From assembly GCF_014203795.1 (NCBI RefSeq), contig NZ_JACHJU010000002.1, forward strand, positions 682,001 to 746,000: a stretch of 64,000 bases of DNA, written 5' to 3'. The stretch is from Streptosporangium album (GTDB taxonomy: Bacteria > Actinomycetota > Actinomycetes > Streptosporangiales > Streptosporangiaceae). Below are positions 4,036 through 30,615 of this stretch, in pieces (within the stretch, counting starts at the first letter, position 1; every line of letters starts with the position of its first letter). A model generated the notes under the pieces. That model was not told the DNA's origin and made no database searches. It saw nothing but the letters and a program-made list of their open reading frames with translations. Position numbers and translations under genes: made by a program.

Positions 4036-4289
4036 TTTTTTAGGAAGGCGTTTTCTTGTTCGAGCTCGGCGATCCGGCGTTCCATCTCACGGATCCGCGC
4101 TCGCTCCGCGGCGTCCCGCGCCTGCTCGGTGTTCCCCGACCGGCGACGCTTTTCCTTGCTCACCCAGTTCCGTACGGTCTCCCGTGAAACCCCGAAATCC
4201 TTCGCGGCCTGTCCGATCGTCACCTGATCGTCCAAGACAGCTTTGACGACTTCGTCCTTAAACTCCTGGGCGTAGTTCTTTCCTGCCAC
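4002..4289 (-). CDS. IS3-family OrfA, HTH DNA-binding protein
   Basis: A 95-residue transposase N-terminal protein: helix-turn-helix (IGQAAKDFGVSRETVRNWV) in the first half and a leucine-zipper-like coiled coil (RIREMERRIAELEQENAFLKK) in the second half. It binds the element ends and, when fused by frameshifting to OrfB, forms the transposase. It overlaps OrfB by 34 bp. Confidence 0.92.
   Translation of the reverse strand: MAGKNYAQEFKDEVVKAVLDDQVTIGQAAKDFGVSRETVRNWVSKEKRRRSGNTEQARDAAERARIREMERRIAELEQENAFLKKCAAFFAKEQR
4035..4041 (-). promoter_or_regulatory. A7 slippery site for -1 frameshift, orfA to orfB
   Basis: Seven T residues on the plus strand read as AAAAAAA followed by TG in the coding direction, inside the orfA/orfB overlap. 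This is the classic position and sequence of the IS3 programmed -1 frameshift. The A7 run also forms the start of the possible internal ATG of orfB. Confidence 0.75.
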
Positions 4290-4365
4290 GTACCCGTTCC
4301 TTCCAGATCAGTCAGCACCCTACTGGGCACCGTGTCCGGAAGACTGGGGGCTCCTCATCCCTCTG

Positions 4366-5283
4366 TTGCTCCTGCTGCTGGCTTTCGTGGCCGCGCGGTG
4401 GCTCTTCTATCTGCTGGCGCTGTACTACTTCTTCCGCAGCGCCCGCCTCCTCGTCTGGCGCCTTTTCGGCGGCGATGCCCCTCCGGATGTGCACGACCCG
4501 ATGGTGACGCGCATCAAGAGACTGCGGACGTGGACGGCGCCCACGGTGTCGCTCGTGCTTCTCGCATCGTTCGCCACCCCAGAAGACGTCATCCTCGAGA
4601 AGATCTCTGAACCATTTCTGACACTTATCGTCGCGCCCTGGCTGCTCGTCGCCACCGCGACGGTCGTCATCGGGATACTCATCCGCTGCGCGCCGCCCGA
4701 AGAGCGCCCGGTTATGCGGACCGCCCTGCGAAGCCCGCTGCGCAAACTCGGCTATTACGCCGGCACATTGCTCCTCGCCTACGCTCTCCTTCTCAGCCTC
4801 ATGTTGGGGCTGCCTGACGACGAGGTGAATTTGAACAACGCCAGCTGGCCAGTCAAGGCGGCCGTGGCGGCGGTCGTTTGGTTTGCGCTCATATTCCTGT
4901 TCGCCTCCGGCAGGGTCGTACGGACCGGCTTCGGCCTGGGCACCGTCCACCCCGCGCTCCCGGCCTTGCTGACCGGCGTCCTGGTCTGGGAGTGCTTCGC
5001 CCTCAATGGAATGCCTGGAGGACCGCCGATGATCGCGTGCCTGCTGTTCCTCGGCGGCCCGATCATGGTGAGCGCCATCGTGTGGTGGGAGCTTCACCGA
5101 CTGCGCGTCTGTCACGGGCTTACCTTGCGGGGAGGTTGGCCGGCCCGCAGCGTCACGAATCAGTTCGAATGCGGCCAAGTGAGGGGTGGAGATGCCGACC
5201 TCGTCCGGCAGAGTGCGCGGCAGTCGGAGCCAGACGCCCCCATGTACCACTCTGCGGAGCAGCGTGATGTTCGGGACGGCTGA
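4366..5283 (+). CDS. Multi-pass membrane protein of unknown function, 5' end lost
   Basis: A frame of about 305 residues with roughly seven hydrophobic segments (first at FVAARWLFYLLALYYFF, then near TVSLVLLASFA, FLTLIVAPWLLVATATVV, YAGTLLLAYALLLSLML, AAVAAVVWFALIFLFA, LPALLTGVLVWECFAL, IACLLFLGGPIMVSAIVW). No family is recognised. The frame is open up to the IS3 right end and has no good start or ribosome site, so the native N-terminus was probably removed by that insertion. The last 50 residues are hydrophilic and of different character; the stop lies six bases from the IS30 inverted repeat. Probably a truncated gene. Confidence 0.5.
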   Translation: MLLLLAFVAARWLFYLLALYYFFRSARLLVWRLFGGDAPPDVHDPMVTRIKRLRTWTAPTVSLVLLASFATPEDVILEKISEPFLTLIVAPWLLVATATVVIGILIRCAPPEERPVMRTALRSPLRKLGYYAGTLLLAYALLLSLMLGLPDDEVNLNNASWPVKAAVAAVVWFALIFLFASGRVVRTGFGLGTVHPALPALLTGVLVWECFALNGMPGGPPMIACLLFLGGPIMVSAIVWWELHRLRVCHGLTLRGGWPARSVTNQFECGQVRGGDADLVRQSARQSEPDAPMYHSAEQRDVRDG

Positions 5284-5288
5284 GCACG

Positions 5289-6499
5289 ATAGCTTAGATT
5301 CAAACGATCAACGCAACGCTGCTAGTGGATGGGTGGATCGTGGCTCGGATGGGTCGGCCGGGAATGTCGGACGCGATGAAAGTAGACTTGTGGCGGCAGT
5401 GGCGCGCCGGTGACTCCATCAGCATGATCTCCCGGACACTGGGCAAGCCCCCGGGGTCGGTTTTCACGGTGCTGAAGCACCATGGCGGCATCGCGCCGGC
5501 CGAGCGGGTGCGCCGGGCCGACCGTTTGAGCGCCGAGGACCGGGAATCGATCTCTCGCGGCCTCGAGGCTGGAGCCTCACTACGTTCGATCGCCGTGTCG
5601 ATCGGCCGCCCGGCGTCCACGGTGGGCCGGGAGGTCGCCCGCAACGGCGGCCGAGTCAAGTACCGTGCGGTCGCCGCCGAGCAACGCGCTCAAGAGCAGG
5701 CACGTCGCCCAAAACCGTCCGCCCTGGAGGACAACCCGGTGCTGTGCCAGCTGGTGATCGAACTGCTCGACAACGAGTGGTCCCCGGAGCAGATCGTGGG
5801 ACATCTGCGGCTGATGCACGCTGGCAACCCGCATATGCGGATCAGCCACGAAAGCATCTACCGCGCGATCTACACGACCCAGTGGAAAGTGATCCCGCGT
5901 GAGCTGTGCGCCAAGCTGCGCACGCGCCGTCCCATCCGCAAAAACAAGAAGAACACGGTCAAGGGCCAGTGGCGTTCCCAGATCACCGGGGCCCGGCCGA
6001 TCGAGGAACGGCCTGACGCAGCCAACGCCCGAACCGAGCTCGGCCACCTCGAAGGCGATCTCATCGTCGGAGCCAAGAACAGCCAGGTCGCGACGCTGGT
6101 CGACCGCAAGTCCCGCTACCTGACCATGGTCGCGCTACCCAGCCGTCACACTACGACGGTCATCCCCGCCCTGCAGCAGGCGTTCTCACTGATGGAAACT
6201 CGCCTGCTCAGCACTCTGACCTGGGACCGCGGTATGGAACTCGCCGGCCACCGGCTGCTGACCGAAGCGACCGGCGTCGACGTCTTCTTCGCAGCACCGC
6301 GCAGCCCATGGCAGCGGGGCACAAACGAGAACACGAACAAACTGATCCGGCAATACCTACCGAAAGGCATCGATCTGAGCCTGTACAGCCAAGCCGACCT
6401 CGACGCCCTGGCCGCCCGACTGAACAACCGCCCCCGCAAGTGCCTCGGCTACCGAACCCCGGCCCAATGCGTTGCCTTGACTCTTTGAATCTAAGCTAT
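5289..6499 (+). mobile_element. IS30-family insertion sequence, 1211 bp
   Basis: Near-perfect 30-bp inverted repeats: the left end begins ATAGCTTAGATTCAAA and the right end gives the same 16 bases on the opposite strand, with 26 of 30 positions identical overall. They bracket one transposase gene. Size and layout fit IS30. A 2-3 bp target duplication cannot be decided by eye. Confidence 0.9.
5325..6488 (+). CDS. IS30-family transposase
   Basis: A 387-residue protein with an N-terminal helix-turn-helix region (GDSISMISRTLGKPPGSV), a second HTH (GASLRSIAVSIGRPASTV followed by REVARNGG), and an rve-type DDE core: LEGDLIVGAKN, LTWDRGMELAGH and GTNENTNKLIRQYLPKG, the last being the IS30 signature around the catalytic Glu. 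The C-terminus NNRPRKCLGYRTP is also characteristic. It appears intact. The 5' GTG is used here; an ATG at 5349 (MGRPGMSD) is an alternative start. Confidence 0.93.
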   Translation: MDGWIVARMGRPGMSDAMKVDLWRQWRAGDSISMISRTLGKPPGSVFTVLKHHGGIAPAERVRRADRLSAEDRESISRGLEAGASLRSIAVSIGRPASTVGREVARNGGRVKYRAVAAEQRAQEQARRPKPSALEDNPVLCQLVIELLDNEWSPEQIVGHLRLMHAGNPHMRISHESIYRAIYTTQWKVIPRELCAKLRTRRPIRKNKKNTVKGQWRSQITGARPIEERPDAANARTELGHLEGDLIVGAKNSQVATLVDRKSRYLTMVALPSRHTTTVIPALQQAFSLMETRLLSTLTWDRGMELAGHRLLTEATGVDVFFAAPRSPWQRGTNENTNKLIRQYLPKGIDLSLYSQADLDALAARLNNRPRKCLGYRTPAQCVALTL

Positions 6500-7992: not shown

Positions 7993-8745
7993 TCATAGCA
8001 AATAGACGAACTTGCGGCGCAGGGCTCGGGGCTGCGGGGGCGGTCGTCCCCAGATCCAGGGATGGGCGTGGGCGTTGAGCTGGGCGGTAGCGAGGGTGAC
8101 CGCGTGGGCGATCTCGGTGGCGTCGGCGAAGGTCTGCCCGGCGAACGCGGCCCGGCGCAGCAGCCGCCACCAACCCTCGGCCAGGTTCAGCCAGCAGGCC
8201 TTGACCGGGATGAACACCTGGCGAATACGTGGATGCCGCAGCAACCACTGGCGGACCTTCCAGCTGGAATGGCTGGACAGGTTGTCGGTGATGACCACGA
8301 TCGGGCCGCGTCGGTTGGCCCTGGCGATCTGCTGAAGCAGCCCGATCCAGCCGTCGCTGTCGCGTGAGGGCGCGCAGAAGGTGAGCTCGATGCCATCGCG
8401 GATGCGCAGGCCGCCGTATACCCAGCTCTTGTCGGTGCCGCGGGAGTAGGTCAGCGGCGCTTTAATCCGGTGTCCGTCGACCGACCAGCCGGGCGCGGGC
8501 GGGAAGGTGCGCGGGGTCACCGGTCCCAGCTCGTCGGCGCAGATGACCGTGGTACCGGGCGGCGGGTCGGTGTAGCAGCCGATGACCTCGGCCCTTTTGG
8601 GGCGAAGTCCGGATCGGTCGAGGTGGTCCAAGAGCGGGGATGGCGCCAGCGGACCTTCTCTTTGAGCAGGATCCGGCGGACCTGGCTGCGCGCGATGACG
8701 ATGCCCTGCGCGCGGGCGGCGGCGGTCAGGCTGTCCAGCGTCCAC
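7993..8745 (-). CDS. IS630-family transposase, catalytic part (second frame)
   Basis: The recognisable protein begins around VIGCYTDPPPGTTVICADELGPVTPR, with the first catalytic Asp in CADELGP; then IVVITDNLSSHSS (second Asp with the family's DN-x-x-x-H) and the last acidic block VKACWLNLAEGWWRLLRR, the IS630 W-LN-x-x-E signature. The first 50 codons of the open frame are not part of the protein: translation should enter by a -1 shift near 8595-8601 from the upstream frame. Confidence 0.9.
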   Translation of the reverse strand: MDAGQPDRRRPRAGHRHRAQPGPPDPAQREGPLAPSPLLDHLDRSGLRPKRAEVIGCYTDPPPGTTVICADELGPVTPRTFPPAPGWSVDGHRIKAPLTYSRGTDKSWVYGGLRIRDGIELTFCAPSRDSDGWIGLLQQIARANRRGPIVVITDNLSSHSSWKVRQWLLRHPRIRQVFIPVKACWLNLAEGWWRLLRRAAFAGQTFADATEIAHAVTLATAQLNAHAHPWIWGRPPPQPRALRRKFVYLL

Positions 8746-9152
8746 TGCGGCGGGCCGCCCTCATCGGCCGCGGCCAGGTCCCCGGCCTCGTCGCGGACCA
8801 GCCGTCCGGGCGGAGTCGAGCGCGCTAGCGCGATGAGCTGTCCGCGTTCGAGCTCGGTGATGCGTGGTTTGCGGCCTGCCCCGGGTCGGTCGCCCAGGCC
8901 GGCCAGGCCTTCGGCGTTGAAGCGCTCGATCCGCTCGCGTACGGTCTGCATGTGACAGCCCAGCTTGGCGGCAATGGCGCTGGTGCGCAGCCCCTGCCAG
9001 CTGAACACGATGATCTGCGCTCTCATGATCCAGTCGGCCGGGGCATGACGGGCCCCGGCCAGCTTGCAGATCTGTCGTTTCTCTTCGGCGTCCATCGGTG
9101 GACGCGCATGCAGCAGTTTCGGCATGACAATCCCCCCTGAGACCATCATCAC
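8517..9152 (-). CDS. IS630-family transposase, DNA-binding part (first frame)
   Basis: The N-terminal half of the transposase with two helix-turn-helix units: LRTSAIAAKLGCHMQTVRER and, later, WTLDSLTAAARAQGIVIARSQVRRIL. After VRWRHPRSWTTSTDPDFAPK the frame loses the family pattern and continues for about 30 junk codons, while the expected sequence continues in the -1 frame. Likely start is the ATG of MPKLLHAR or slightly upstream. Confidence 0.9.
   Translation of the reverse strand: MMMVSGGIVMPKLLHARPPMDAEEKRQICKLAGARHAPADWIMRAQIIVFSWQGLRTSAIAAKLGCHMQTVRERIERFNAEGLAGLGDRPGAGRKPRITELERGQLIALARSTPPGRLVRDEAGDLAAADEGGPPQWTLDSLTAAARAQGIVIARSQVRRILLKEKVRWRHPRSWTTSTDPDFAPKGPRSSAATPTRRPVPRSSAPTSWDR
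8595..8601 (-). promoter_or_regulatory. CCCAAAA slippery heptamer in the IS630 transposase
   Basis: Read on the minus strand the sequence is C CCA AAA G in frame with DFAPK. A one-base backward slip restores the IS630 reading (PK then RAEVIGCYT). The heptamer has the X-XXY-YYZ form of bacterial -1 programmed frameshift sites, so this is more likely regulation than damage. Confidence 0.7.
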
Positions 9153-9317
9153 CCCAGGTCAGCAGGGATCTTTGACTCCATTCAGGAACGCAGCATTACC
9201 GGTGGTCTGTTAAATCCGGACGTAGAGGTTGAGGGCATGTCCGGCTCCGACGGTGTAGGCATTCAGAGGTTCGCGATCATGGTGTGAGCACCGCCCGCGC
9301 GGTGGGATGATCTTTGG

Positions 9318-9825
9318 GTGCCGAAGACCCCGGATCGCCGCCCGTCGTATGACGAGCTGGCCGCGTTGGTGGTCCGGCAGATGGCCACGATCGAGGCTCA
9401 GCGGGAGACGATCGCGCAGCTGGAAGCGACGGTTGAGCGGCTGACCGCGCGGGTCGCCGAGCTGGAACGCAGGCAGGGCCGCAACTCGGGGAACTCCTCG
9501 CTGCCGCCGTCCAGTGACACCTTCGTCCGGCCGGACAAAAAGCCGACGGCCAAGAGCGGGCGCAAACGGGGCCGCCAGCCCGGAGCACCGGGAAGCGGCC
9601 TGGCCATGGTCGATACCCCCGACGAGGTCGAAGACCACGTCCCGGCCGCCTGTGGCGGATGCGGGAAGGAGCTGTCGGCCACCGACAGCGTGGGCTATTC
9701 GCGCCGCCAGGTCCGCGACATTCCCCTGGCCACCGTCACGGTGACCGAGCACCGCGCGCATCGGTGCCGATGCGGCGGGTGCGGCCGCCTCACCAGCGCG
9801 GACATGCCCGAGACGGTGGCAGTGG
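9318..9825 (+). pseudogene. IS66-family transposase, 5' half (split by IS21)
   Basis: About 170 codons of a single-ORF IS66 transposase: coiled coil (residues 20-55), the GRNSGNSSLPPSSD block, a basic linker KKPTAKSGRKRGRQPG, and a zinc-ribbon region with CGGCG and CRCGGCGR. The gene stops at an IS21 insertion; joining base 9825 to base 18234 restores the continuous reading ETVAVAGAPSSYGPN, with CAGTGG duplicated at both sides. The open frame runs on to 9839 into the IS21 end. Confidence 0.93.
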
Positions 9826-9986
9826 TTATGACGACTTGAAACGGCCCCACCTGGGCGGCTTGAGCTGGACCCACCTCGGGCCGGTGGTGTGATCCCAGAC
9901 CGACATGTCGGCTTGAAATGGCCCCACCTTTAGGGTTGCGGTGACAGGCTCGACCTGCTAGATCACGCGCGCCGCGGCAAGGGGGC

Positions 9987-11666
9987 TTGGTGGCGCTCAC
10001 CAAAGTCGAGCTGTTCGACCAGATCCGCCGGGATTCGTGGCGTGAAGGCCTAGGCGTTCGGGCACTGGCCCGCAAGTACGGCGTGCACAGGCGACTGGTC
10101 CGCGAAGCACTGACGCAGCCCGAACCAACACCGCGTAAGACACCGAAACGGCGATCTCCGCAGTTGGAGCCGTTCAAGAAGGTAATCGACGAGTGGTTGC
10201 GCGCCGACCTGGACGCGCCCCGCAAACAGCGTCACACCGTCAAGCGGATCCACCGCCGACTGCTCGATGAGCAGGATGCGGCCGGGCTGTCGTACTCCAC
10301 GGTGCGTGACTACCTCGCCAAGCGCAAACCCGAGATCCGCATCGAGGAGGGCCGGGCACCGGCCAAGGTGTTCATCCGCCAGAACCATCCGCCCGGCGAG
10401 GAGGCCGAGGTCGACTTCGGCGAGTTGTGGGTGAACCTGGCCGGGGTGCTGACCAAGTGCTACCTGTTCGTCTACCGCATGTCGTATTCCGGCAAGGCCA
10501 TCCACAAGATCTACGCCACCAGCGGCCAGGAGGCGTTCCTGGAAGGGCACGTGGAGGCATTCACCCGGCTGGGCGGCACCCCGACCCGGCACATCCGCTA
10601 CGACAACCTGACCGCGGCAGTGACGAAGGTTCTCTTCCGCGGCCGGCTCCGGGTGGAAAACCCCCGCTGGCGGCTGTTTCGCTCGCACTACCGCTGCGAG
10701 GCCTTCTACTGCGAGCGCGGCATCGAGGGCGCTCATGAGAAGGGCGGGGTGGAAGGCCAGATCGGCTACTTTCGTCGCAACTACCTGTCGCCGGTGCCGC
10801 AAGTGGACAGCCTGGCCGAGCTCAACGCCCGCATCGAGCACTTCGAGCAGCTCGAAGACGGCCGCCGGATCGGAGCACGGCTGCGCACCATCGCCCAGGA
10901 CTTCGCGATCGAAGCGCCGCTGCTACGCGCGCTGCCTGACGATCATTTCTCTACCGGGCTGCTGCTGACGCCCCGCGTCGACCGCTATGGCCAGATCACC
11001 GTGCGCTGCTGCCGCTACTCGGTGCCGATTCATCTGATCGGCCGCACGGTGCGGGTGATGCTGCACGCCTGTGAGGTCATCGTCTACGACCGGCACCGCG
11101 AGGTCGCCAGGCATGAACGGCTGACCGGCAAGGGCACCGAAACCATCGTGTTGGATCACTATCTGGAGGCGTTGATGCGCAAACCCGGGGCGTTTGCCGG
11201 GTCGGTCGCGCTGGAGGCGGCCCGCATCGGCGGCGCGTTCACCGACGCCCACGACGCCCTGTGGTCAGCGGCCCGGCGCTCGCTGGGCGAACCCGGCGCG
11301 ACCCGCGCGTTGATCGAGGTGTTGCTGCTGCACCGCACCATGGACGACGCCGACGTCATCGCCGGGATCCGCGCGGCGCTGTCGGTCGGCTCGTTCGCCG
11401 CCGACGTGATCGCGGTGGAGGCCCGCAAGGCGGCCGATGCCCGCGGCACCGGCCGTCCCACCCCGGGCATCGCCCGCCTGAGCGGGCCGGCGACGGTCCC
11501 GGCCGAAAGCCCCCAGGTGACCAGCCTGACCCGCAAACGCCTGGCCGAGCTTCCCCCCGACACCCGTCCGCTGCCCAGCGTGGATGCCTACGACCAGCTG
11601 CTGCGCCGCCCGGCGCCCAACACCTGCCACCAAAGCGACACCCACCACCAGGAGAGCGCGTCATGA
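9987..11666 (+). CDS. istA: IS21-family transposase IstA
   Basis: A 559-residue transposase: N-terminal HTH (GVRALARKYGVHRRLVREAL), an rve-type DDE core with AEVDFGELWVNL (first Asp), the second Asp in HIRYDNLTAAV and the Glu in GAHEKGGVEGQIGYFRRNYL, then the IS21-specific C-terminal region. It works with the IstB ATPase. The stop overlaps the istB start as ATGA. Start is TTG at 9987 or, better, GTG at 9990, behind a GGGGG ribosome site. It appears intact. Confidence 0.95.
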   Translation: MVALTKVELFDQIRRDSWREGLGVRALARKYGVHRRLVREALTQPEPTPRKTPKRRSPQLEPFKKVIDEWLRADLDAPRKQRHTVKRIHRRLLDEQDAAGLSYSTVRDYLAKRKPEIRIEEGRAPAKVFIRQNHPPGEEAEVDFGELWVNLAGVLTKCYLFVYRMSYSGKAIHKIYATSGQEAFLEGHVEAFTRLGGTPTRHIRYDNLTAAVTKVLFRGRLRVENPRWRLFRSHYRCEAFYCERGIEGAHEKGGVEGQIGYFRRNYLSPVPQVDSLAELNARIEHFEQLEDGRRIGARLRTIAQDFAIEAPLLRALPDDHFSTGLLLTPRVDRYGQITVRCCRYSVPIHLIGRTVRVMLHACEVIVYDRHREVARHERLTGKGTETIVLDHYLEALMRKPGAFAGSVALEAARIGGAFTDAHDALWSAARRSLGEPGATRALIEVLLLHRTMDDADVIAGIRAALSVGSFAADVIAVEARKAADARGTGRPTPGIARLSGPATVPAESPQVTSLTRKRLAELPPDTRPLPSVDAYDQLLRRPAPNTCHQSDTHHQESAS

Positions 11667-22418: not shown

Positions 22419-25400
22419 ATGGACGGCGGGCGCTGGAAGGGCGGTGTCCGGGAGAGCGGGACGGCGTCGGCCGAGTCGGGCGGGTATGCCAACACGGGTA
22501 TCCATATCGGGGATGTCTATCGGGAGCCGGTGGCGCGGTCGGCGTATCTGGAGCAGGTTGAGCAGATCTTCCCGTGGAGGTTGGAGGGTCGCGCTGAGGA
22601 GTTGGCCGAGCTGGCGGCGTTCTGCTTGGGTGAGGGCGGTTCGGGTTATGTGTGGTGGCAGGGGCCGGCGTGGGCGGGTAAGTCGGCGTTGATGGCGACG
22701 CTGGTGTTGCATCCCCCGGTCGGGGTGCGGGTAGTGTCGTTCTTTATCACGGCCCGGTATGCGGGGCAGAGTGATCGTCAGGCGTTCTTGGATGTGGTGT
22801 TGCCGCAGTTGGCGGGGCTGTTGGGGCAGTCGCTGCCGCCGTTGCTGGGGGCGGCGACGCAGCAGGGGTGGTTCAACCGGTTGTTGAAGGAGGCCGCTCA
22901 GGCGTGTGTGCGGGCGGGTGAGCGGTTGGTGTTGGTGGTGGATGGGCTGGATGAGGATCGGGGGGTGACGGTCGGGCCGGGGGCGTACAGTATCGCGGCG
23001 TTGTTGCCGTCGGTGGTGGTGGAGGGGTTGCGGGTGGTGGTGGCTGGGCGGCCTAACCCTCCGGTGCCGTCGGATGTGCCGGTGGGGCATCCGTTGCGGG
23101 ATGCGCGGATCGTACGGGCGTTGGCGCCGTCGGCTGCGGCGCAGGTCATCCGTGATGACGCTGAGCGTGAGCTGGAGCATGTGCTGCATGGGGCTGCTGC
23201 CGGGCGTGACCTGTTGGGGTTGTTGGTGGCCGCGGGTGGTGGTCTGAGCGTTGGGGATCTGGCGGAGCTGACCGGGTCGCCGGCGGGTGTGGTGCGTAGG
23301 TGGTTGCACGCGGTGTCTGGGCGGACGTTTACCGGTCGGGAGAGCCGGTGGCGGCCGGGTACGGGGGCGCGGGTGTTCGTGCTGGCGCATGAGGAGCTTC
23401 ACGCCGCCGCGGTGGAGTCGCTGGGGGAGCGGATGCTGTCGGGGTGTCGTGACCGGATTCATGCGTGGGCGCAGGGTTATCGGGATCGGGGGTGGCCGGC
23501 CGAGACGCCGGAGTATCTGTTGCGGGGTTATCACCGGTTGCTGGGGTCGGTGGGCGATCTGGAGCGGATGGTGGCGTGCGCGATCGATGGGGCGCGGCTT
23601 GATCGGATGATGGACATCAGTGGGGGTGATGCTGCGGCGTTGGCTGAGATCACGGCCTGTCAGGCGGTGATCTGTGGGCAGGAGGAGCCGGATCTTTCGG
23701 TGATGCTGCTGCTTGCCCATACCCGCGATCGGTTGGCCGAGCGCAACGCGATGCTCCCGACCGGGTTACCCGCAGTATGGGCGCGGCTGGGTAACACCGT
23801 TCGTGCTGAAGCCTTGGCCCGCTCCATCACTGACCCCTACTATCAAGCGCAGGCGTTGGCGGCACTGGTGGAGGCGCTGGCCAGTGCGGGTGAACACGAT
23901 CGGGCACGAACACTCGCCCACGAAACCGAGACCATAGCCCGCACCATCCCCGACCCCCGCGCTCAAGCCCTGGCGTCGACGGCACTGGTGGAGGCGCTGG
24001 CCAGTGCGGGTGAACACGATCGGGCACGAACACTCGCCCACGAAACCGAGACCATAGCCCGCACCATCACCAACCCCTCCCTTCAAGCGCAGGCGTTGGC
24101 GGCACTGGTGGAGGCGCTGGCCAGTGCGGGTGAACACGATCGGGCACGAACACTCGCCCACGAAACCGAGACCATAGCCCGCACCATCACCAACCCCTCC
24201 CTTCAAGCGCAGGCGTTGGCGGCACTGGTGGAGGCGCTGGCCAGTGCGGGTGAACACGATCGGGCACGAACACTCGCCCACGAAACCGAGACCATAGCCC
24301 GCACCATCACCAACCCCTCCCTTCAAGCGCAGGCGTTGGCGGCACTGGTGGAGGCGCTGGCCAGTGCGGGTGAACACGATCGGGCACGAACACTCGCCCA
24401 CGAAACCGAGACCATAGCCCGCACCATCACCAACCCCTCCCTTCAAGCCCTGGCGTCGACGGCACTGGTGAAGGCACTGGCCCATGCGGGTGAACACGAA
24501 CAAGCCGAGACCATAGCCCGCACCATCACCGACCCCAACTCTCAAGCCCTGGCGTCGACGGCACTGGTGGAGGCACTGGCCCATGCGGGTGAACACGAAC
24601 AAGCCGAGACCATAGCCCGCACCATCACCAACCCCCGCGCTCAAGCGCAGGCGTTGGCGGCACTGGTGGAGGCGCTGGCCAGTGCGGGTGAACACGATCG
24701 GGCACGAACACTCGCCCACGAAACCGAGACCATAGCCCGCACCATCCCCGACCCCCGCGCTCAAGCCCTGGCGTCGACGGCACTGGTGAAGGCGCTGGCC
24801 AGTGCGGGTGAACACGATCGGGCACGAACACTCGCCCACGAAACCGAGACCATAGCCCGCACCATCCCCGACCCCTACGATCAAGTGGAGGCGTTGGCGA
24901 TGGTGGTGAGGGCGCTGGCCGATGCAGGTCAACACGATCGGGTACGGACGCTCGCCCACGAAACCGAGACCGTAGCCCGCACCATCCCCGACCCCGACCA
25001 TCAATTGGGGGGGTTGGTGATGGTGGTGAGGGCGCTGGCCGATGCAGGTCAACACGAACAAGCCGAGACCATAGCCCGCACCATCACCAACCCCCGCGCT
25101 CAAGCCCTGGCGTCGACGGCACTGGTGAAGGCACTGGCCCATGCGGGTCAACACGATCGGGCACGAACACTCGCCCACGAAACCGAGACCATAGCCCGCA
25201 CCATCCCCGACCCCTACGATCAAGTGGAGGCGTTAGCGATGGTGGTGAGGGCGCTGGCCGGTGCAGGTCAACACGAACAAGCCGAGACCATAGCCCGCAC
25301 CATCACCAACCCCTACTATCAAGCGCAGGCGTTGGCGGCACTGGTGGAGGCGCTGGCCGGTGCAGGTCAACACGAACAAGCCGAGACCATAGCCCGCACC

Positions 25401-25799
25401 ATCACCGACCCCTACTATCAAGCGCAGGCGTTGGCGGCACTGGTGGAGGCGCTGGCCGGTGCAGGTCAACACGAACAAGCCGAGACCATAGCCCGCACCA
25501 TCACCGACCCCTACTATCAAGCGCAGGCGTTGGCGGCACTGGTGGAGGCGCTGGCCGGTGCAGGTCAACACGAACAAGCCGAGACCATAGCCCGCACCAT
25601 CACCGACCCCCACTATCAAGCGCAGGCCATTGCCTCAATCGTGAGGCACAACGACGTATCCCAAAATCGTCAACTACTCGCGTGGGGACTGAGTAGGTTG
25701 AGCCATGTTTATCTACTCAACAGCGTCGTAAAGGTTGAACCGGCCGCAGTTTGCCGACTTGCACAAGCCATAGAGCAGGCTGATCACAAGCCACGATAA
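22419..25799 (+). CDS. STAND/NACHT-like NTPase with 16 near-identical TPR-like repeats
   Basis: An 1126-residue protein. Residues 10-35 carry the Gly-rich ANTG motif shared with the upstream membrane protein. Residues 50-330 form a P-loop STAND-type NTPase: Walker A GPAWAGKS (82-89), Walker B LVLVVDGLDED (170-180), GRP sensor-like motif at 210. Residues 330-470 are a helical linker. Residues 472-1062 are 16 tandem units of 40 or 33 residues (ALVEALASAGEHDRARTLA type), likely paired helices like TPRs. Such proteins sense a ligand through the repeats and signal by NTP-driven oligomerisation, often in antiphage or self/non-self conflict. No separate effector domain is visible, so the membrane partner may be the output. 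The array is codon-identical in places, implying recent expansion. Confidence 0.85.
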   Translation: MDGGRWKGGVRESGTASAESGGYANTGIHIGDVYREPVARSAYLEQVEQIFPWRLEGRAEELAELAAFCLGEGGSGYVWWQGPAWAGKSALMATLVLHPPVGVRVVSFFITARYAGQSDRQAFLDVVLPQLAGLLGQSLPPLLGAATQQGWFNRLLKEAAQACVRAGERLVLVVDGLDEDRGVTVGPGAYSIAALLPSVVVEGLRVVVAGRPNPPVPSDVPVGHPLRDARIVRALAPSAAAQVIRDDAERELEHVLHGAAAGRDLLGLLVAAGGGLSVGDLAELTGSPAGVVRRWLHAVSGRTFTGRESRWRPGTGARVFVLAHEELHAAAVESLGERMLSGCRDRIHAWAQGYRDRGWPAETPEYLLRGYHRLLGSVGDLERMVACAIDGARLDRMMDISGGDAAALAEITACQAVICGQEEPDLSVMLLLAHTRDRLAERNAMLPTGLPAVWARLGNTVRAEALARSITDPYYQAQALAALVEALASAGEHDRARTLAHETETIARTIPDPRAQALASTALVEALASAGEHDRARTLAHETETIARTITNPSLQAQALAALVEALASAGEHDRARTLAHETETIARTITNPSLQAQALAALVEALASAGEHDRARTLAHETETIARTITNPSLQAQALAALVEALASAGEHDRARTLAHETETIARTITNPSLQALASTALVKALAHAGEHEQAETIARTITDPNSQALASTALVEALAHAGEHEQAETIARTITNPRAQAQALAALVEALASAGEHDRARTLAHETETIARTIPDPRAQALASTALVKALASAGEHDRARTLAHETETIARTIPDPYDQVEALAMVVRALADAGQHDRVRTLAHETETVARTIPDPDHQLGGLVMVVRALADAGQHEQAETIARTITNPRAQALASTALVKALAHAGQHDRARTLAHETETIARTIPDPYDQVEALAMVVRALAGAGQHEQAETIARTITNPYYQAQALAALVEALAGAGQHEQAETIARTITDPYYQAQALAALVEALAGAGQHEQAETIARTITDPYYQAQALAALVEALAGAGQHEQAETIARTITDPHYQAQAIASIVRHNDVSQNRQLLAWGLSRLSHVYLLNSVVKVEPAAVCRLAQAIEQADHKPR
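23832..25604 (+). repeat. In-frame tandem repeat array: nine 120-bp and seven 99-bp units
   Basis: The units start at DP/NP and end ARTIT/ARTIP. Order by length (L 120 bp, S 99 bp): L L L L L S S L L L S L S S S S, total 1773 bp, exactly filling the interval. Units 3-5 (24072-24431) are identical base for base, and units 15-16 (25407-25604) are identical to each other; unit 14 differs from them only in its first base. Short units lack seven residues (LAHETET) and have EQAE instead of DRAR. Confidence 0.97.
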
Positions 25800-25991
25800 A
25801 GAATCTTCGAAGCTCAGCAGGCTCGTTAAGGGCGAATGGCGCGTGGGCGGTGCTGGCCGCGACCGGCCGAAGAGCCGCAGCGCGGCCAGCGACCGCCCGA
25901 CGCGCGGCGAGACGCCGCAGGCGGATCGGTTGAGTCGGCCTGGGGCGCGGTGTCGAAGTTGCCTTCGGTCCGTTTCCCCAGGCCGCTCGCC

Positions 25992-26025
25992 GAACCCGGC
26001 GTGCGACTTTCATCGCACCGGGCTC
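25992..26025 (-). ncRNA. Group II intron domain V, copy 1
   Basis: The 34-nt hairpin GAGCCCGGTGCGATGAAAGT...GCCGGGTTC has the conserved AGC-like base, the GAAA tetraloop and bulge of bacterial group II domain V. It is the catalytic heart of the ribozyme. A domain VI-like stem follows. The same hairpin is at 28169-28202 in copy 2. Confidence 0.88.
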
Positions 26026-26041
26026 TCCACGGTCTTTGCCG

Positions 26042-27523
26042 TTAGGTGTGGGCAGGAGTCCAGGGGTTGGGGATCTTGTTGCCTCGGTAGCGGTACCGGG
26101 TGATCGGTATTGCCGCGACTCGTTTCAATTCGGTCCCGCCCGCCGTGATGGGTAGCCACTGCCCAATGGGTGTGGTGTATCGACGGCGGATGTCGCTCCA
26201 CGTCCAGCGGTGTCGTTTCCAGAGCATCCTGATCACTCTGCACCAGGTGAAGTGGTCCAGACTGTCGAAGGTGCGTTGGGCGACGGCGTGCTTGAAGTAG
26301 GAGGCCCACCCGTGGGTGATCGCGTTGAGTCTCCTCAACACTGATTGCAGGTCCTGCTGCGACGTTCTGGGCGTGAGGGCACGGATCTTCGCTCTGACCG
26401 TCCGGATGGCCTGGTGGGAGACGAAGGTGTAGACGTACCACTTGTTGGTGCCTTGCTTGCGACGCCACTGGAGGCGGAATCCCAAGAAGTCGAACGCCTC
26501 GCTCATGTGCACGATCCTGGTTTTGGCTGGTGAGAGCCGTAGTCCCAGGAAGGCGAGCACGTGGGTGATTTCCTCGTGTAGGGCCTGGACGTCCTCGCGG
26601 GCGCCGAAAACGAGTACGACGAAGTCGTCCGCGTAGCGGACGAGACGCCAGTTCGGCATGGCATGGCGACGACGGTAGGCCCGTCGGCCAAGGGTGCTCA
26701 TCGTCCCGCCGTCTTTCCAAGGACCGTGCAGGTGCTCATCGAGCGCCGACATGGCGATGTTGAAGATCAGCGGTGAGAGGATGCCCCCTTGCGGGGTGCC
26801 GGTCGGGGTGTCCCTGTGTTCGCCGAGTTCGGTCAAAATCCCGGCTTTGAGGAACGCCTTGACCAGCGCCAGTACGCGTTTGTCCTTCACGCGGGCGCGT
26901 ATCCGGTCCATCACCGGTGGATGCGCGACGTTGTCGAAGGCCGCCTCGATGTCCGCGTCCAGCACCCAGCGGTAGCCGCGGGTGCCGAAGTAGTGGATCT
27001 CAGCGATCGCGTCCTGCGCGCGTCGCCGGGGCCGAAACCCGTAGGAGACCGGCAAGAAGCCGGCCTCGAAGATGGGTTCCAGCACCAACTTCAGCGCGGC
27101 CTGGACGACCCGGTCGGCCACCGTGGGAATCCCCAGACGGCGGAGTTTTCCAGCTCCACCGGGCTTGGGGATCAGACGTTCCCGTACCGGTAGCGGACGG
27201 AACGTGCCCGTCTTGAGTTGAGCACGCAGGTCATCCAGGAACCCGGAAACTCCGATGTACTCCTCGACCTGGGCGACCGTCAGGCCATCCACGCCGGGAG
27301 TGCGGGCTCCCATGTTGCCCGCGACCCGCTCGAACGCCATCAGCAGCGTCGCCGGGTCGTGCACGAGGTTGAACAGATCGTCGAAACGGCGGCCAGAATC
27401 GGCCGTTGCCCAACGGTGAAGCTTGGCCTGCATCTCCGATACCTGCCGTCGGGGCCCCTTGGGGACCTCATCCGGCCAGGCACCACCATTCGGCGGTGCG
27501 TCTTTCGGCATTACAGCCTCCAT
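26042..27523 (-). CDS. ltrA: Group II intron reverse transcriptase/maturase, copy 1
   Basis: A 493-residue LtrA-type protein. RT domain with RRLGIPTVADRVVQAALKL, YGFRPRRRAQDAI, DADIEAAFDNVAH, GTPQGGILSPLIFNIAMSAL and the active site YADDFVVLV; maturase (GIIM) domain around RLNAITHGWASYFKHAV. No HNH endonuclease domain follows, which is common in bacterial lineages that prime without second-strand cleavage. It splices and mobilises its own intron RNA. It is identical in sequence to the copy at 28219 and appears intact. Confidence 0.96.
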   Translation of the reverse strand: MEAVMPKDAPPNGGAWPDEVPKGPRRQVSEMQAKLHRWATADSGRRFDDLFNLVHDPATLLMAFERVAGNMGARTPGVDGLTVAQVEEYIGVSGFLDDLRAQLKTGTFRPLPVRERLIPKPGGAGKLRRLGIPTVADRVVQAALKLVLEPIFEAGFLPVSYGFRPRRRAQDAIAEIHYFGTRGYRWVLDADIEAAFDNVAHPPVMDRIRARVKDKRVLALVKAFLKAGILTELGEHRDTPTGTPQGGILSPLIFNIAMSALDEHLHGPWKDGGTMSTLGRRAYRRRHAMPNWRLVRYADDFVVLVFGAREDVQALHEEITHVLAFLGLRLSPAKTRIVHMSEAFDFLGFRLQWRRKQGTNKWYVYTFVSHQAIRTVRAKIRALTPRTSQQDLQSVLRRLNAITHGWASYFKHAVAQRTFDSLDHFTWCRVIRMLWKRHRWTWSDIRRRYTTPIGQWLPITAGGTELKRVAAIPITRYRYRGNKIPNPWTPAHT

Positions 27524-28105
27524 CCCTTCACAAAACCGCTGCCGTCCTTCGCCATGTGACCGGCTCTCCCGGCCTCGGACTACTACGACGGCTCCGCCCC
27601 GCCCGGCCCGTTCGACGGTCGGTGCATCTATCCCGATAGGCGGACTGGCTGTCTGCCCTTCGGGAGTCGCGACCAGGCGGTTCCCGTGTTCACACCGATT
27701 CGTTGGGTGGAGGAGGAGCCCGACTCTGTCCCAGCGGCCTCGTCATGGGTACGCCGCAGTCCTTCCCCATGACCTCCCGGGACTGGTTAAGGATCCCTTC
27801 CCGGAAGTTCCCGCCGCTCAAGCAGACGACGGGACGCACCGCGCCCGGCCCATATCCACCAGATTTGAGCCGGTACTACGTGTTGAAGGACGTAAAGACG
27901 CCGGTTCCTCGCGTACTCCTTTCCACCTCGCTCGCCGGACCCGCACCATCTGGCAGTACTGGCACGTCCCGGCTTTGTCAGGGCTGCTCCCGCCCTCCCC
28001 GGCACCACCCGGGTCAGACTGCCCTCAGCTACCCCACCCTGCTACGACAGGACGAAGGAGAGGGTCTTTCACCTCCTCGCGAACCGGTGCGCCGCACGGC
28101 GCACC

Positions 28106-30281
28106 GTTGAGTCGGCCTGGGGCGCGGTGTCGAAGTTGCCTTCGGTCCGTTTCCCCAGGCCGCTCGCCGAACCCGGCGTGCGACTTTCATCGCACCGGGC
28201 TCTCCACGGTCTTTGCCGTTAGGTGTGGGCAGGAGTCCAGGGGTTGGGGATCTTGTTGCCTCGGTAGCGGTACCGGGTGATCGGTATTGCCGCGACTCGT
28301 TTCAATTCGGTCCCGCCCGCCGTGATGGGTAGCCACTGCCCAATGGGTGTGGTGTATCGACGGCGGATGTCGCTCCACGTCCAGCGGTGTCGTTTCCAGA
28401 GCATCCTGATCACTCTGCACCAGGTGAAGTGGTCCAGACTGTCGAAGGTGCGTTGGGCGACGGCGTGCTTGAAGTAGGAGGCCCACCCGTGGGTGATCGC
28501 GTTGAGTCTCCTCAACACTGATTGCAGGTCCTGCTGCGACGTTCTGGGCGTGAGGGCACGGATCTTCGCTCTGACCGTCCGGATGGCCTGGTGGGAGACG
28601 AAGGTGTAGACGTACCACTTGTTGGTGCCTTGCTTGCGACGCCACTGGAGGCGGAATCCCAAGAAGTCGAACGCCTCGCTCATGTGCACGATCCTGGTTT
28701 TGGCTGGTGAGAGCCGTAGTCCCAGGAAGGCGAGCACGTGGGTGATTTCCTCGTGTAGGGCCTGGACGTCCTCGCGGGCGCCGAAAACGAGTACGACGAA
28801 GTCGTCCGCGTAGCGGACGAGACGCCAGTTCGGCATGGCATGGCGACGACGGTAGGCCCGTCGGCCAAGGGTGCTCATCGTCCCGCCGTCTTTCCAAGGA
28901 CCGTGCAGGTGCTCATCGAGCGCCGACATGGCGATGTTGAAGATCAGCGGTGAGAGGATGCCCCCTTGCGGGGTGCCGGTCGGGGTGTCCCTGTGTTCGC
29001 CGAGTTCGGTCAAAATCCCGGCTTTGAGGAACGCCTTGACCAGCGCCAGTACGCGTTTGTCCTTCACGCGGGCGCGTATCCGGTCCATCACCGGTGGATG
29101 CGCGACGTTGTCGAAGGCCGCCTCGATGTCCGCGTCCAGCACCCAGCGGTAGCCGCGGGTGCCGAAGTAGTGGATCTCAGCGATCGCGTCCTGCGCGCGT
29201 CGCCGGGGCCGAAACCCGTAGGAGACCGGCAAGAAGCCGGCCTCGAAGATGGGTTCCAGCACCAACTTCAGCGCGGCCTGGACGACCCGGTCGGCCACCG
29301 TGGGAATCCCCAGACGGCGGAGTTTTCCAGCTCCACCGGGCTTGGGGATCAGACGTTCCCGTACCGGTAGCGGACGGAACGTGCCCGTCTTGAGTTGAGC
29401 ACGCAGGTCATCCAGGAACCCGGAAACTCCGATGTACTCCTCGACCTGGGCGACCGTCAGGCCATCCACGCCGGGAGTGCGGGCTCCCATGTTGCCCGCG
29501 ACCCGCTCGAACGCCATCAGCAGCGTCGCCGGGTCGTGCACGAGGTTGAACAGATCGTCGAAACGGCGGCCAGAATCGGCCGTTGCCCAACGGTGAAGCT
29601 TGGCCTGCATCTCCGATACCTGCCGTCGGGGCCCCTTGGGGACCTCATCCGGCCAGGCACCACCATTCGGCGGTGCGTCTTTCGGCATTACAGCCTCCAT
29701 CCCTTCACAAAACCGCTGCCGTCCTTCGCCATGTGACCGGCTCTCCCGGCCTCGGACTACTACGACGGCTCCGCCCCGCCCGGCCCGTTCGACGGTCGGT
29801 GCATCTATCCCGATAGGCGGACTGGCTGTCTGCCCTTCGGGAGTCGCGACCAGGCGGTTCCCGTGTTCACACCGATTCGTTGGGTGGAGGAGGAGCCCGA
29901 CTCTGTCCCAGCGGCCTCGTCATGGGTACGCCGCAGTCCTTCCCCATGACCTCCCGGGACTGGTTAAGGATCCCTTCCCGGAAGTTCCCGCCGCTCAAGC
30001 AGACGACGGGACGCACCGCGCCCGGCCCATATCCACCAGATTTGAGCCGGTACTACGTGTTGAAGGACGTAAAGACGCCGGTTCCTCGCGTACTCCTTTC
30101 CACCTCGCTCGCCGGACCCGCACCATCTGGCAGTACTGGCACGTCCCGGCTTTGTCAGGGCTGCTCCCGCCCTCCCCGGCACCACCCGGGTCAGACTGCC
30201 CTCAGCTACCCCACCCTGCTACGACAGGACGAAGGAGAGGGTCTTTCACCTCCTCGCGAACCGGTGCGCCGCACGGCGCAC
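28106..30281 (-). mobile_element. Group II intron, copy 2 (2176 bp)
   Basis: The same intron as copy 1, at a period of 2177 bp (one extra G as spacer at 28105). The 5' end is at 30281 after ...TTTAAAG on the minus strand; the 3' end at 28106 abuts copy 1. Inside, every compared row is identical to copy 1. Since it is transcribed first, its 5' exon is the only native upstream sequence of the pair. Confidence 0.9.
28219..29700 (-). CDS. ltrA: Group II intron reverse transcriptase/maturase, copy 2
   Basis: The protein sequence is identical to that of copy 1 (493 residues, RT active site YADD, GIIM maturase domain, no HNH domain). It lies inside its own intron with domain V at 28169-28202 downstream. 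Two complete and identical maturases in tandem introns indicate a very recent event: tandem retrohoming or unequal crossing-over. No difference between the two genes was seen. Confidence 0.96.
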   Translation of the reverse strand: MEAVMPKDAPPNGGAWPDEVPKGPRRQVSEMQAKLHRWATADSGRRFDDLFNLVHDPATLLMAFERVAGNMGARTPGVDGLTVAQVEEYIGVSGFLDDLRAQLKTGTFRPLPVRERLIPKPGGAGKLRRLGIPTVADRVVQAALKLVLEPIFEAGFLPVSYGFRPRRRAQDAIAEIHYFGTRGYRWVLDADIEAAFDNVAHPPVMDRIRARVKDKRVLALVKAFLKAGILTELGEHRDTPTGTPQGGILSPLIFNIAMSALDEHLHGPWKDGGTMSTLGRRAYRRRHAMPNWRLVRYADDFVVLVFGAREDVQALHEEITHVLAFLGLRLSPAKTRIVHMSEAFDFLGFRLQWRRKQGTNKWYVYTFVSHQAIRTVRAKIRALTPRTSQQDLQSVLRRLNAITHGWASYFKHAVAQRTFDSLDHFTWCRVIRMLWKRHRWTWSDIRRRYTTPIGQWLPITAGGTELKRVAAIPITRYRYRGNKIPNPWTPAHT

Positions 30282-30348
30282 CTTTAAAGACGTAGAGAAA
30301 GTTCTCATCCGGAGCGAGCGAGCTATGATGATCTTGAAGCCATAGTGG

Positions 30349-30615
30349 CTACTTGGAAGTGTCGCCGGCCTCGGCTGTGCGCTCCTCGACGGTGGTGACG
30401 AAACTGCCCATGCCACGCTCGGTCCGAATCCATCGATCCTTGCGAAGAGCGTTCATAACCTTCTGCGCGGTCTGGGTGGCAATCCCGAACTCTTGGGTCA
30501 AATCGACGACCGAGGGGATTCGCTGGCCGGACTTGTACTGGCCCGTCTCGATGCGCTGGACGATGATGTCTCGCACCTGTCGCCACCTGGGCAGATCGTC
30601 GCGCAGCTCCGTCAT
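30349..30615 (-). CDS. GntR-family winged-helix regulator
   Basis: An 88-residue protein made of a single GntR-type winged HTH: WRQVRDIIVQRIETGQYKSG, then RIPSVVDLTQEFGIATQTA and LRKDRWIRTERGMGSFV. There is no C-terminal effector domain, so it is likely a small dedicated repressor of the integrative element, like those found near AICE transfer genes. Upstream (30664-30702) are three GGTGT repeats that could be its operator. Confidence 0.85.
   Translation of the reverse strand: MTELRDDLPRWRQVRDIIVQRIETGQYKSGQRIPSVVDLTQEFGIATQTAQKVMNALRKDRWIRTERGMGSFVTTVEERTAEAGDTSK

Follow-up and report, generated by a model that had tools for sequence, protein, structure and literature searches.

Several arrangements in which one self-splicing intron interrupts or adjoins another are already known, namely twintrons, nested arrays, a self-invading intron and the tandem group I introns of fungi. 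In the excerpts of the literature available to us, bacterial group II twintrons are described for Thermosynechococcus elongatus, where TeI4 and TeI3 form such a unit (PMC2882425), and for Trichodesmium, where removal is sequential in vivo (PMC4649490). The twintrons resemble the locus reported here in that group II introns have inserted into group II introns; however, they consist of a different intron inside an outer intron, whereas here an identical copy lies in the other's 5′ exon contact (IBS1). The nested intron arrays of Methanosarcina acetivorans, as described in excerpts of PMC4424553 and PMC2882425, are similar in that related introns repeatedly home site-specifically onto each other without coding exons. 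They are nested within intron sequences, whereas the copies here lie head to tail at an exon junction.

Self-invasion is also on record for a group II intron, cox1i1149g2 of Lycopodiaceae mitochondria, which lies within another copy of itself (Zumkeller 2020, as described in part of PMC8393795). That insertion is internal and in a plant organelle; the bacterial one described here is external, and full RT ORFs are present in both copies. The same source, in the part available, describes tandem group I introns in fungal mitochondria, which lie side by side and for which a ratchet order, upstream intron first, has been proposed, although they belong to another ribozyme class. Finally, C.te.I1 of Clostridium tetani has several D5/D6 units that provide alternative 3′ splice sites (as described in excerpts of PMC4424553). 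It is a precedent for skipping to a distal D5/D6 unit, but there D5/D6 alone is repeated, whereas here whole introns are. In the accessible portions of the open-licence PMC papers searched, we found neither a perfect tandem of identical bacterial group II introns nor identical copies of a group II intron arranged head to tail where a homing site was already occupied.

Two identical group II introns in tandem

The window analysed here is a 64,000-nucleotide stretch of the Streptosporangium album genome (contig NZ_JACHJU010000002.1, positions 682,001 to 746,000), an assembly of 9.02 Mb in 14 contigs. Within the window, positions 25929-28105 and 28106-30282 are identical without interruption over 2177 bases, and a repeat search returned the same spacing. 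A perfect repeat of 2.2 kb with this period (2177) cannot be attributed to chance. Read on the minus strand, to which all features of the tandem belong, each repeat unit consists of a group II intron of 2176 bp (GTGCG...CTCAAC) and one G. The upstream copy, I1, spans 28106..30281 and the downstream copy, I2, spans 25929..28104, with a single G at 28105 between them. An earlier note on this DNA had described a head-to-tail pair of identical group II introns that share a maturase and are separated by one G; the repeat identity, the ORFs and the Rfam matches bear this out, and its remark that the 5′ flank of the downstream copy is the 3′ end of the upstream one is literally true.

The consensus for the 5′ end of group II introns is GTGYG, and both copies begin with GTGCG. 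Both also match the Rfam model of group II domain V (RF00029), whose gathering score is 40, at 57.2 bits (E 1.3e-08). Domains V and VI lie at 28106..28204 in I1, as delimited by the Rfam match and the fold, and at 25929..26027 in I2, as delimited by the Rfam match. The I1 sequence folds as these domains should (z -7.0) and leaves an A unpaired 7 nt before the 3′ end. The assignment of I1 rests in addition on its identity with I2, its RT ORF and the insertion-point test, and that of I2 on the same identity and on a cognate 3′ exon, whose C at +1 pairs with EBS3 = G.

Each copy has an intact ORF for an RT/maturase of 493 aa, at 28219..29700 in I1 and at 26042..27523 in I2, and the two are identical. 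The RT domain (RVT_1) and maturase domain X (GIIM) occur together in one ORF, which matches the group II RT/maturase model TIGR04416 at 358.4 bits against a cut-off of 300 (one of the two identical ORFs was scanned). Its relatives in the PDB include group II intron RTs such as the GsI-IIC RT, and no Pfam match to an endonuclease domain was found in it at E 0.001. The pair is not a twintron, because I1 ends before I2 starts, one exonic G separates them and neither interior is interrupted; nor is it a circularly permuted group II intron, because I1 and I2 are both complete and have the normal domain order.

Just upstream of the introns and in the same orientation is a gene for a GntR-family regulator (30349..30615, minus strand), which is perhaps cotranscribed with them, and further upstream, beyond it, is a gene of the FtsK/SpoIIIE type. 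Adjoining the introns on the other side, window positions 22419-25799 encode a protein of 1126 aa with an NPHP3_N/NACHT-like NTPase region and TPR-like repeats. These repeats are long and closely similar, with DNA periods of 99 and 120 bp, and the protein is possibly part of a conflict system.

The target element and other copies of the intron

The same intron, here called intron A, is found at three other loci of the genome in near-identical form. Every one of these copies is interrupted, so that the tandem pair constitutes the only uninterrupted near-identical A copies listed in the genome. All three are located at AAAGG|GTGCG, all three hold another group II intron, intron B (1946 bp; its RT has 427 aa), within the RT gene, and two of the three carry further insertions besides B.

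Intron B lies directly after TACGCGGACGACT, the codons for the YADD active-site motif of the RT, in seven intron-A-like RT genes of the genome (L021:3694-5639, L022:3074-5019 and L023:5527-9078, and also within L025-L028). It looks specialised for the catalytic site of the RTs of other introns. The genome listing gives six complete copies, 100% identical over 1946 bp and located inside contigs, together with three interrupted ones, of which one was examined. In the A copy of L021 (L021:5640-5773), a run of T is one T shorter than in the window copies, which shifts the RT reading frame; the missing T could be a sequencing error.

These data bear on whether the tandem is an assembly artefact, a single copy counted twice. 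Perfect repeats are a classic source of misassembly. However, the locus is about 708 kb and 551 kb from the ends of a 1.26-Mb contig, and the six identical copies of intron B, placed inside contigs, suggest that long reads were used. The boundaries of the repeat are functional ones rather than the ends of the sequence shared between copies, which includes about 30 nt of 5′ exon as well. The unit ends exactly at the functional 3′ end of the intron, the displaced exonic G fits a precise insertion of 2176 bp, and the upstream junction differs by one base from those of all three other copies. An artefact is quite improbable.

The 5′ exon of the tandem, GATGAGAACTTTCTCTACGTCTTTAAAG (30282..30309, minus strand), contains IBS2 (CTACGT) and IBS1. 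The motif also precedes the three other A copies, and GATGAGAACTTTCTYTACGTCTTTAAAG is common to the 5′ exons of all four A loci. A scan of the genome for the motif with up to 3 mismatches gave five sites, four of them occupied by intron A and the fifth, L035, empty and with 2 mismatches. L035 shows the target uninterrupted, as TTTCAAGG|CGCG, and its downstream part resembles the 3′ exon of the window. This 3′ exon (25840..25928, minus strand; 89 bp) is 98% identical to the 3′ flank of the L023 copy and 94% identical over 87 bp to L035. The upstream flank, with the GntR-family gene, resembles the flank of the L021 A copy (90% similarity) and a region that lies about 3.5 kb away from the L023 A copy (93% similarity).

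A 22-nt core of the target, allowing at most one mismatch, is present in 93 of 341 genomes of the family. None of 30 places with this core that were fetched from family genomes carries intron A, and one place outside these 30, in genome G162, is occupied by a relative of intron A. The conserved intergenic element consists of CGGATGAGAACTTTCTCTACGTCTTYAARG followed by a GC-rich tract (window positions 30282-30309 with 25840-25928; L035; L087-L116). Small indels, judged by eye, shift the reading frames between its empty copies, and the idea that it is a pair of protein-coding exons was rejected; because the frames differ in this way, we treat the element as non-coding. From the sequences compared, intron A apparently homes into a widespread and apparently non-coding element.

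Exon pairing and the origin of the tandem

EBS1 and EBS2 were mapped by covariation in an alignment of 27 introns, in which every 6-mer was compared with 5′ exon segments at 12 offsets. There were two clear peaks, at intron positions of about 224-229, pairing with about -9 to -16 (EBS2), and at positions 313-318, pairing with -1 to -6 (EBS1). The mean match at the peaks is 0.65-0.71 against a background mean of 0.25 (SD 0.07). An initial candidate for EBS1, CCTTCAA at position 216, was dropped when covariation put EBS1 at 313-318. EBS3 is position 379, which complements the first base of the 3′ exon in every one of 26 introns; all four bases occur among them, and the column ranked second complements +1 in 16. 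Because the alignment includes several close relatives, its rows do not count as independent for any of the three sites. By arithmetic from these positions, EBS2 (ACGTAG) lies at 30053..30058 in I1 and 27876-27881 in I2, EBS1 (CCTTAA) at 29964..29969 and 27787-27792, and EBS3 (G) at 29903..29903 and 27726, all on the minus strand.

At the canonical site, EBS1 pairs at 5/6 positions, EBS2 pairs at 6/6 with CTACGT (at L023, 5/6 and a G-U) and EBS3 is matched. The upstream copy of the tandem has almost the same contacts, with EBS1 at 5/6 in a register slipped by one nucleotide and EBS2 at 6/6, or 11/12 in total, but its EBS3 is mismatched, G facing G. For the downstream copy, whose 5′ exon is the end of the upstream intron plus G, EBS1 pairs at 4/6 and EBS2 at 3/6, or 7/12, while EBS3 is matched. 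EBS2 was given four offsets in each of these counts. For comparison, 7/12 or better is reached at 2.8% of positions and 11/12 at 0.004%, counted over both strands of the whole window. When the upstream copy is removed in silico, the pairing of the downstream copy with its 5′ exon rises from 7/12 to 11/12.

We propose, with a probability of roughly two in three, that a homing site which already held one copy of intron A, a site-specific intron, received a second copy in its 5′ half. The resident, I2, would have been a normal single copy, AAAGG|GTGCG...CTCAAC|CGATCC. The newcomer, I1, would have recognised the IBS2-IBS1 sequence still present ahead of the resident and, in a register shifted upstream by one nucleotide, reverse-spliced at AAAG^G instead of at the normal site, to give AAAG-[intron]-G-[intron]-CGATCC. 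On this view, the G at 28105 once ended the normal 5′ exon (AAAGG) and is now stranded between the copies. The slip would be accounted for by EBS1 (CCTTAA), which pairs equally well in both registers, at 5/6 with TAAAGG and 5/6 with TTAAAG. That reverse splicing was the agent, and that the events took this order, we infer from the junctions and the pairing. For Ll.LtrB, slightly displaced reverse splicing has been inferred in mRNAs, according to the portion of PMC6248898 available.

The junctions fit this proposal exactly. In silico removal of I1 yields TTTAAAGG|GTGCG, the very junction at which the other A copies of the genome are found, and a single exact insertion of 2176 bp into a canonical single-copy ancestor accounts for every base of difference. 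Such an insertion fits two placements only, of which only AAAG^G gives the intron termini GTGCG and CTCAAC. The earlier note had invoked a target created by the 3′ end of the first intron, or else unequal crossing-over. The former fares poorly, because the intron end plus G pairs with EBS1 and EBS2 at 7/12 as against 11/12 for the retained 5′ exon, so that the second insertion is best explained as targeting the half-site; the latter is unneeded, because one precise insertion of 2176 bp between two exonic Gs of the canonical locus suffices.

Four observations speak against the proposed order. First, the base at +1 of the insertion site, G, does not match EBS3 = G, which breaks the family's own rule, held at 26 of 26 ordinary sites. 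Second, by count the occupied site is paired just as well in the canonical register (AAAGG^G), yet this register was not used. Third, the only empty site in the genome, L035, is a better target and is vacant; it pairs at 11/12 with EBS3 matched, and a shortage of sites alone therefore fails to explain re-insertion. The idea that no homing sites were left in the genome is weakened accordingly. Fourth, the genomes searched yielded no further tandem of this kind.

The mismatch at EBS3 is avoided if the downstream copy is the newcomer, a resident at AAAG^GCGATCC having been followed by an insertion at its own 3′ end (CTCAACG^CGATCC). The final sequence is the same, removal of the downstream copy leaves CTCAACG|CGATCC, and the C at +1 of the second insertion would pair with EBS3. 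Nevertheless, the resident would need a non-canonical site that none of the three other copies in the genome uses, and the second insertion would have to proceed with 4/6 pairing to EBS1 and 3/6 to EBS2, a level reached or exceeded at 2.8% of window positions. We regard this order as quite improbable.

Recombination would need no EBS3 pairing, which is mismatched here, and a duplication at the DNA level could have arisen by template switching, by illegitimate recombination, or by integration of cDNA from an intron circle with an extra nucleotide at its joint. The accessible part of PMC6248898 reports RNA circles of the Ll.LtrB intron, some of which carry additional nucleotides where the ends join. 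The endpoint of such a duplication would, however, need to coincide exactly with the functional 3′ end, and an exonic G would need to be lost upstream and another gained between the copies, whereas a single insertion accounts for both changes of G. It is an improbable origin for the tandem, and re-insertion by reverse splicing at the retained half-site is the origin we prefer.

Predicted splicing and implications

If I1 is the newcomer, it interrupts IBS1 of the resident. I1 retains its 5′ exon contacts, and I2 would be without them until I1 leaves, so the upstream intron must probably be removed first. Its removal would join AAAG to G and so rebuild the downstream 5′ splice site (AAAGG before I2), and subsequent removal of I2 would give AAAGG^CGATCC. 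Alternatively, joint removal from the 5′ splice site of I1 to the 3′ splice site of I2 would give AAAG^CGATCC, shorter by one nucleotide. At the distal 3′ splice site, the C at +1 pairs with EBS3, whereas the G at +1 of the proximal site is unpaired. EBS3 thus favours the distal site, and joint removal is predicted to be a serious competitor. Splicing into intron-exon mosaics or one large lariat, as suggested from the sequence in the earlier note, is possible.

Further tandems were sought with a junction pattern, GGCCKACYYNRC-N{0,20}-KTGCGCCRYG, with the reversed pattern as control. Matches turned up in 62 of the 341 family genomes and 45 of the 394 class genomes (the class sample includes family members), but the reversed pattern also matched in many genomes, so that most junction matches are due to chance. 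In the family listing, CTCAAC followed by GTGCGCCGTG occurs in the window's own match only. BLASTN of the intron against 90 fetched loci (30 family and 30 class junction matches and 30 motif matches) gave no match, and the listed junction matches outside the fetched loci were judged by eye. By these means, no second tandem was recognised besides the window among the 341 family and 394 class genomes. A narrower pattern matched in two of 16 genomes of the genus, in one at the window and in the other at a locus without the intron.

The intron has matches in at least 97 of the 341 family genomes at E 1e-30 (two candidates scored per genome); the named relatives at highest identity are from Nonomuraea, Microbispora and Acrocarpospora. 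Plasmids carry relatives with identity of up to 72%, and none was found in the viral contigs scanned. No same-strand tandem was present in 49 loci with relatives (L038-L086), several of which have copies cut by contig ends. In one of them, L076 of Streptomyces sp. V4I2, two relatives of intron A (4094-6281 and 8651-10838) lie in opposite orientation about 2.4 kb apart, within 150 kb of a contig end.

A more general possibility, which we offer tentatively and consider unlikely, is that the intron re-enters retained 5′ half-sites to build head-to-tail arrays, which are then removed by obligate upstream-first (ratchet) splicing. If this is true, an array that collapsed by recombination would leave behind a 5′ exon with a scar of one nucleotide. 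A tandem that lost its outer halves would become a circularly permuted intron, so that tandems could be a route to such introns.

The general view is that a site which already holds a homing intron is closed to further insertion, since the first insertion has split the target. The locus described here suggests that the upstream half-site can suffice, if pairing tolerates a one-base slip and a wrong base in the 3′ exon. Being natural and defined in sequence, it offers a means to test how far EBS3 prevents re-insertion and whether splicing can be ordered without nesting, and to probe a step that may lead to composite or circularly permuted introns.
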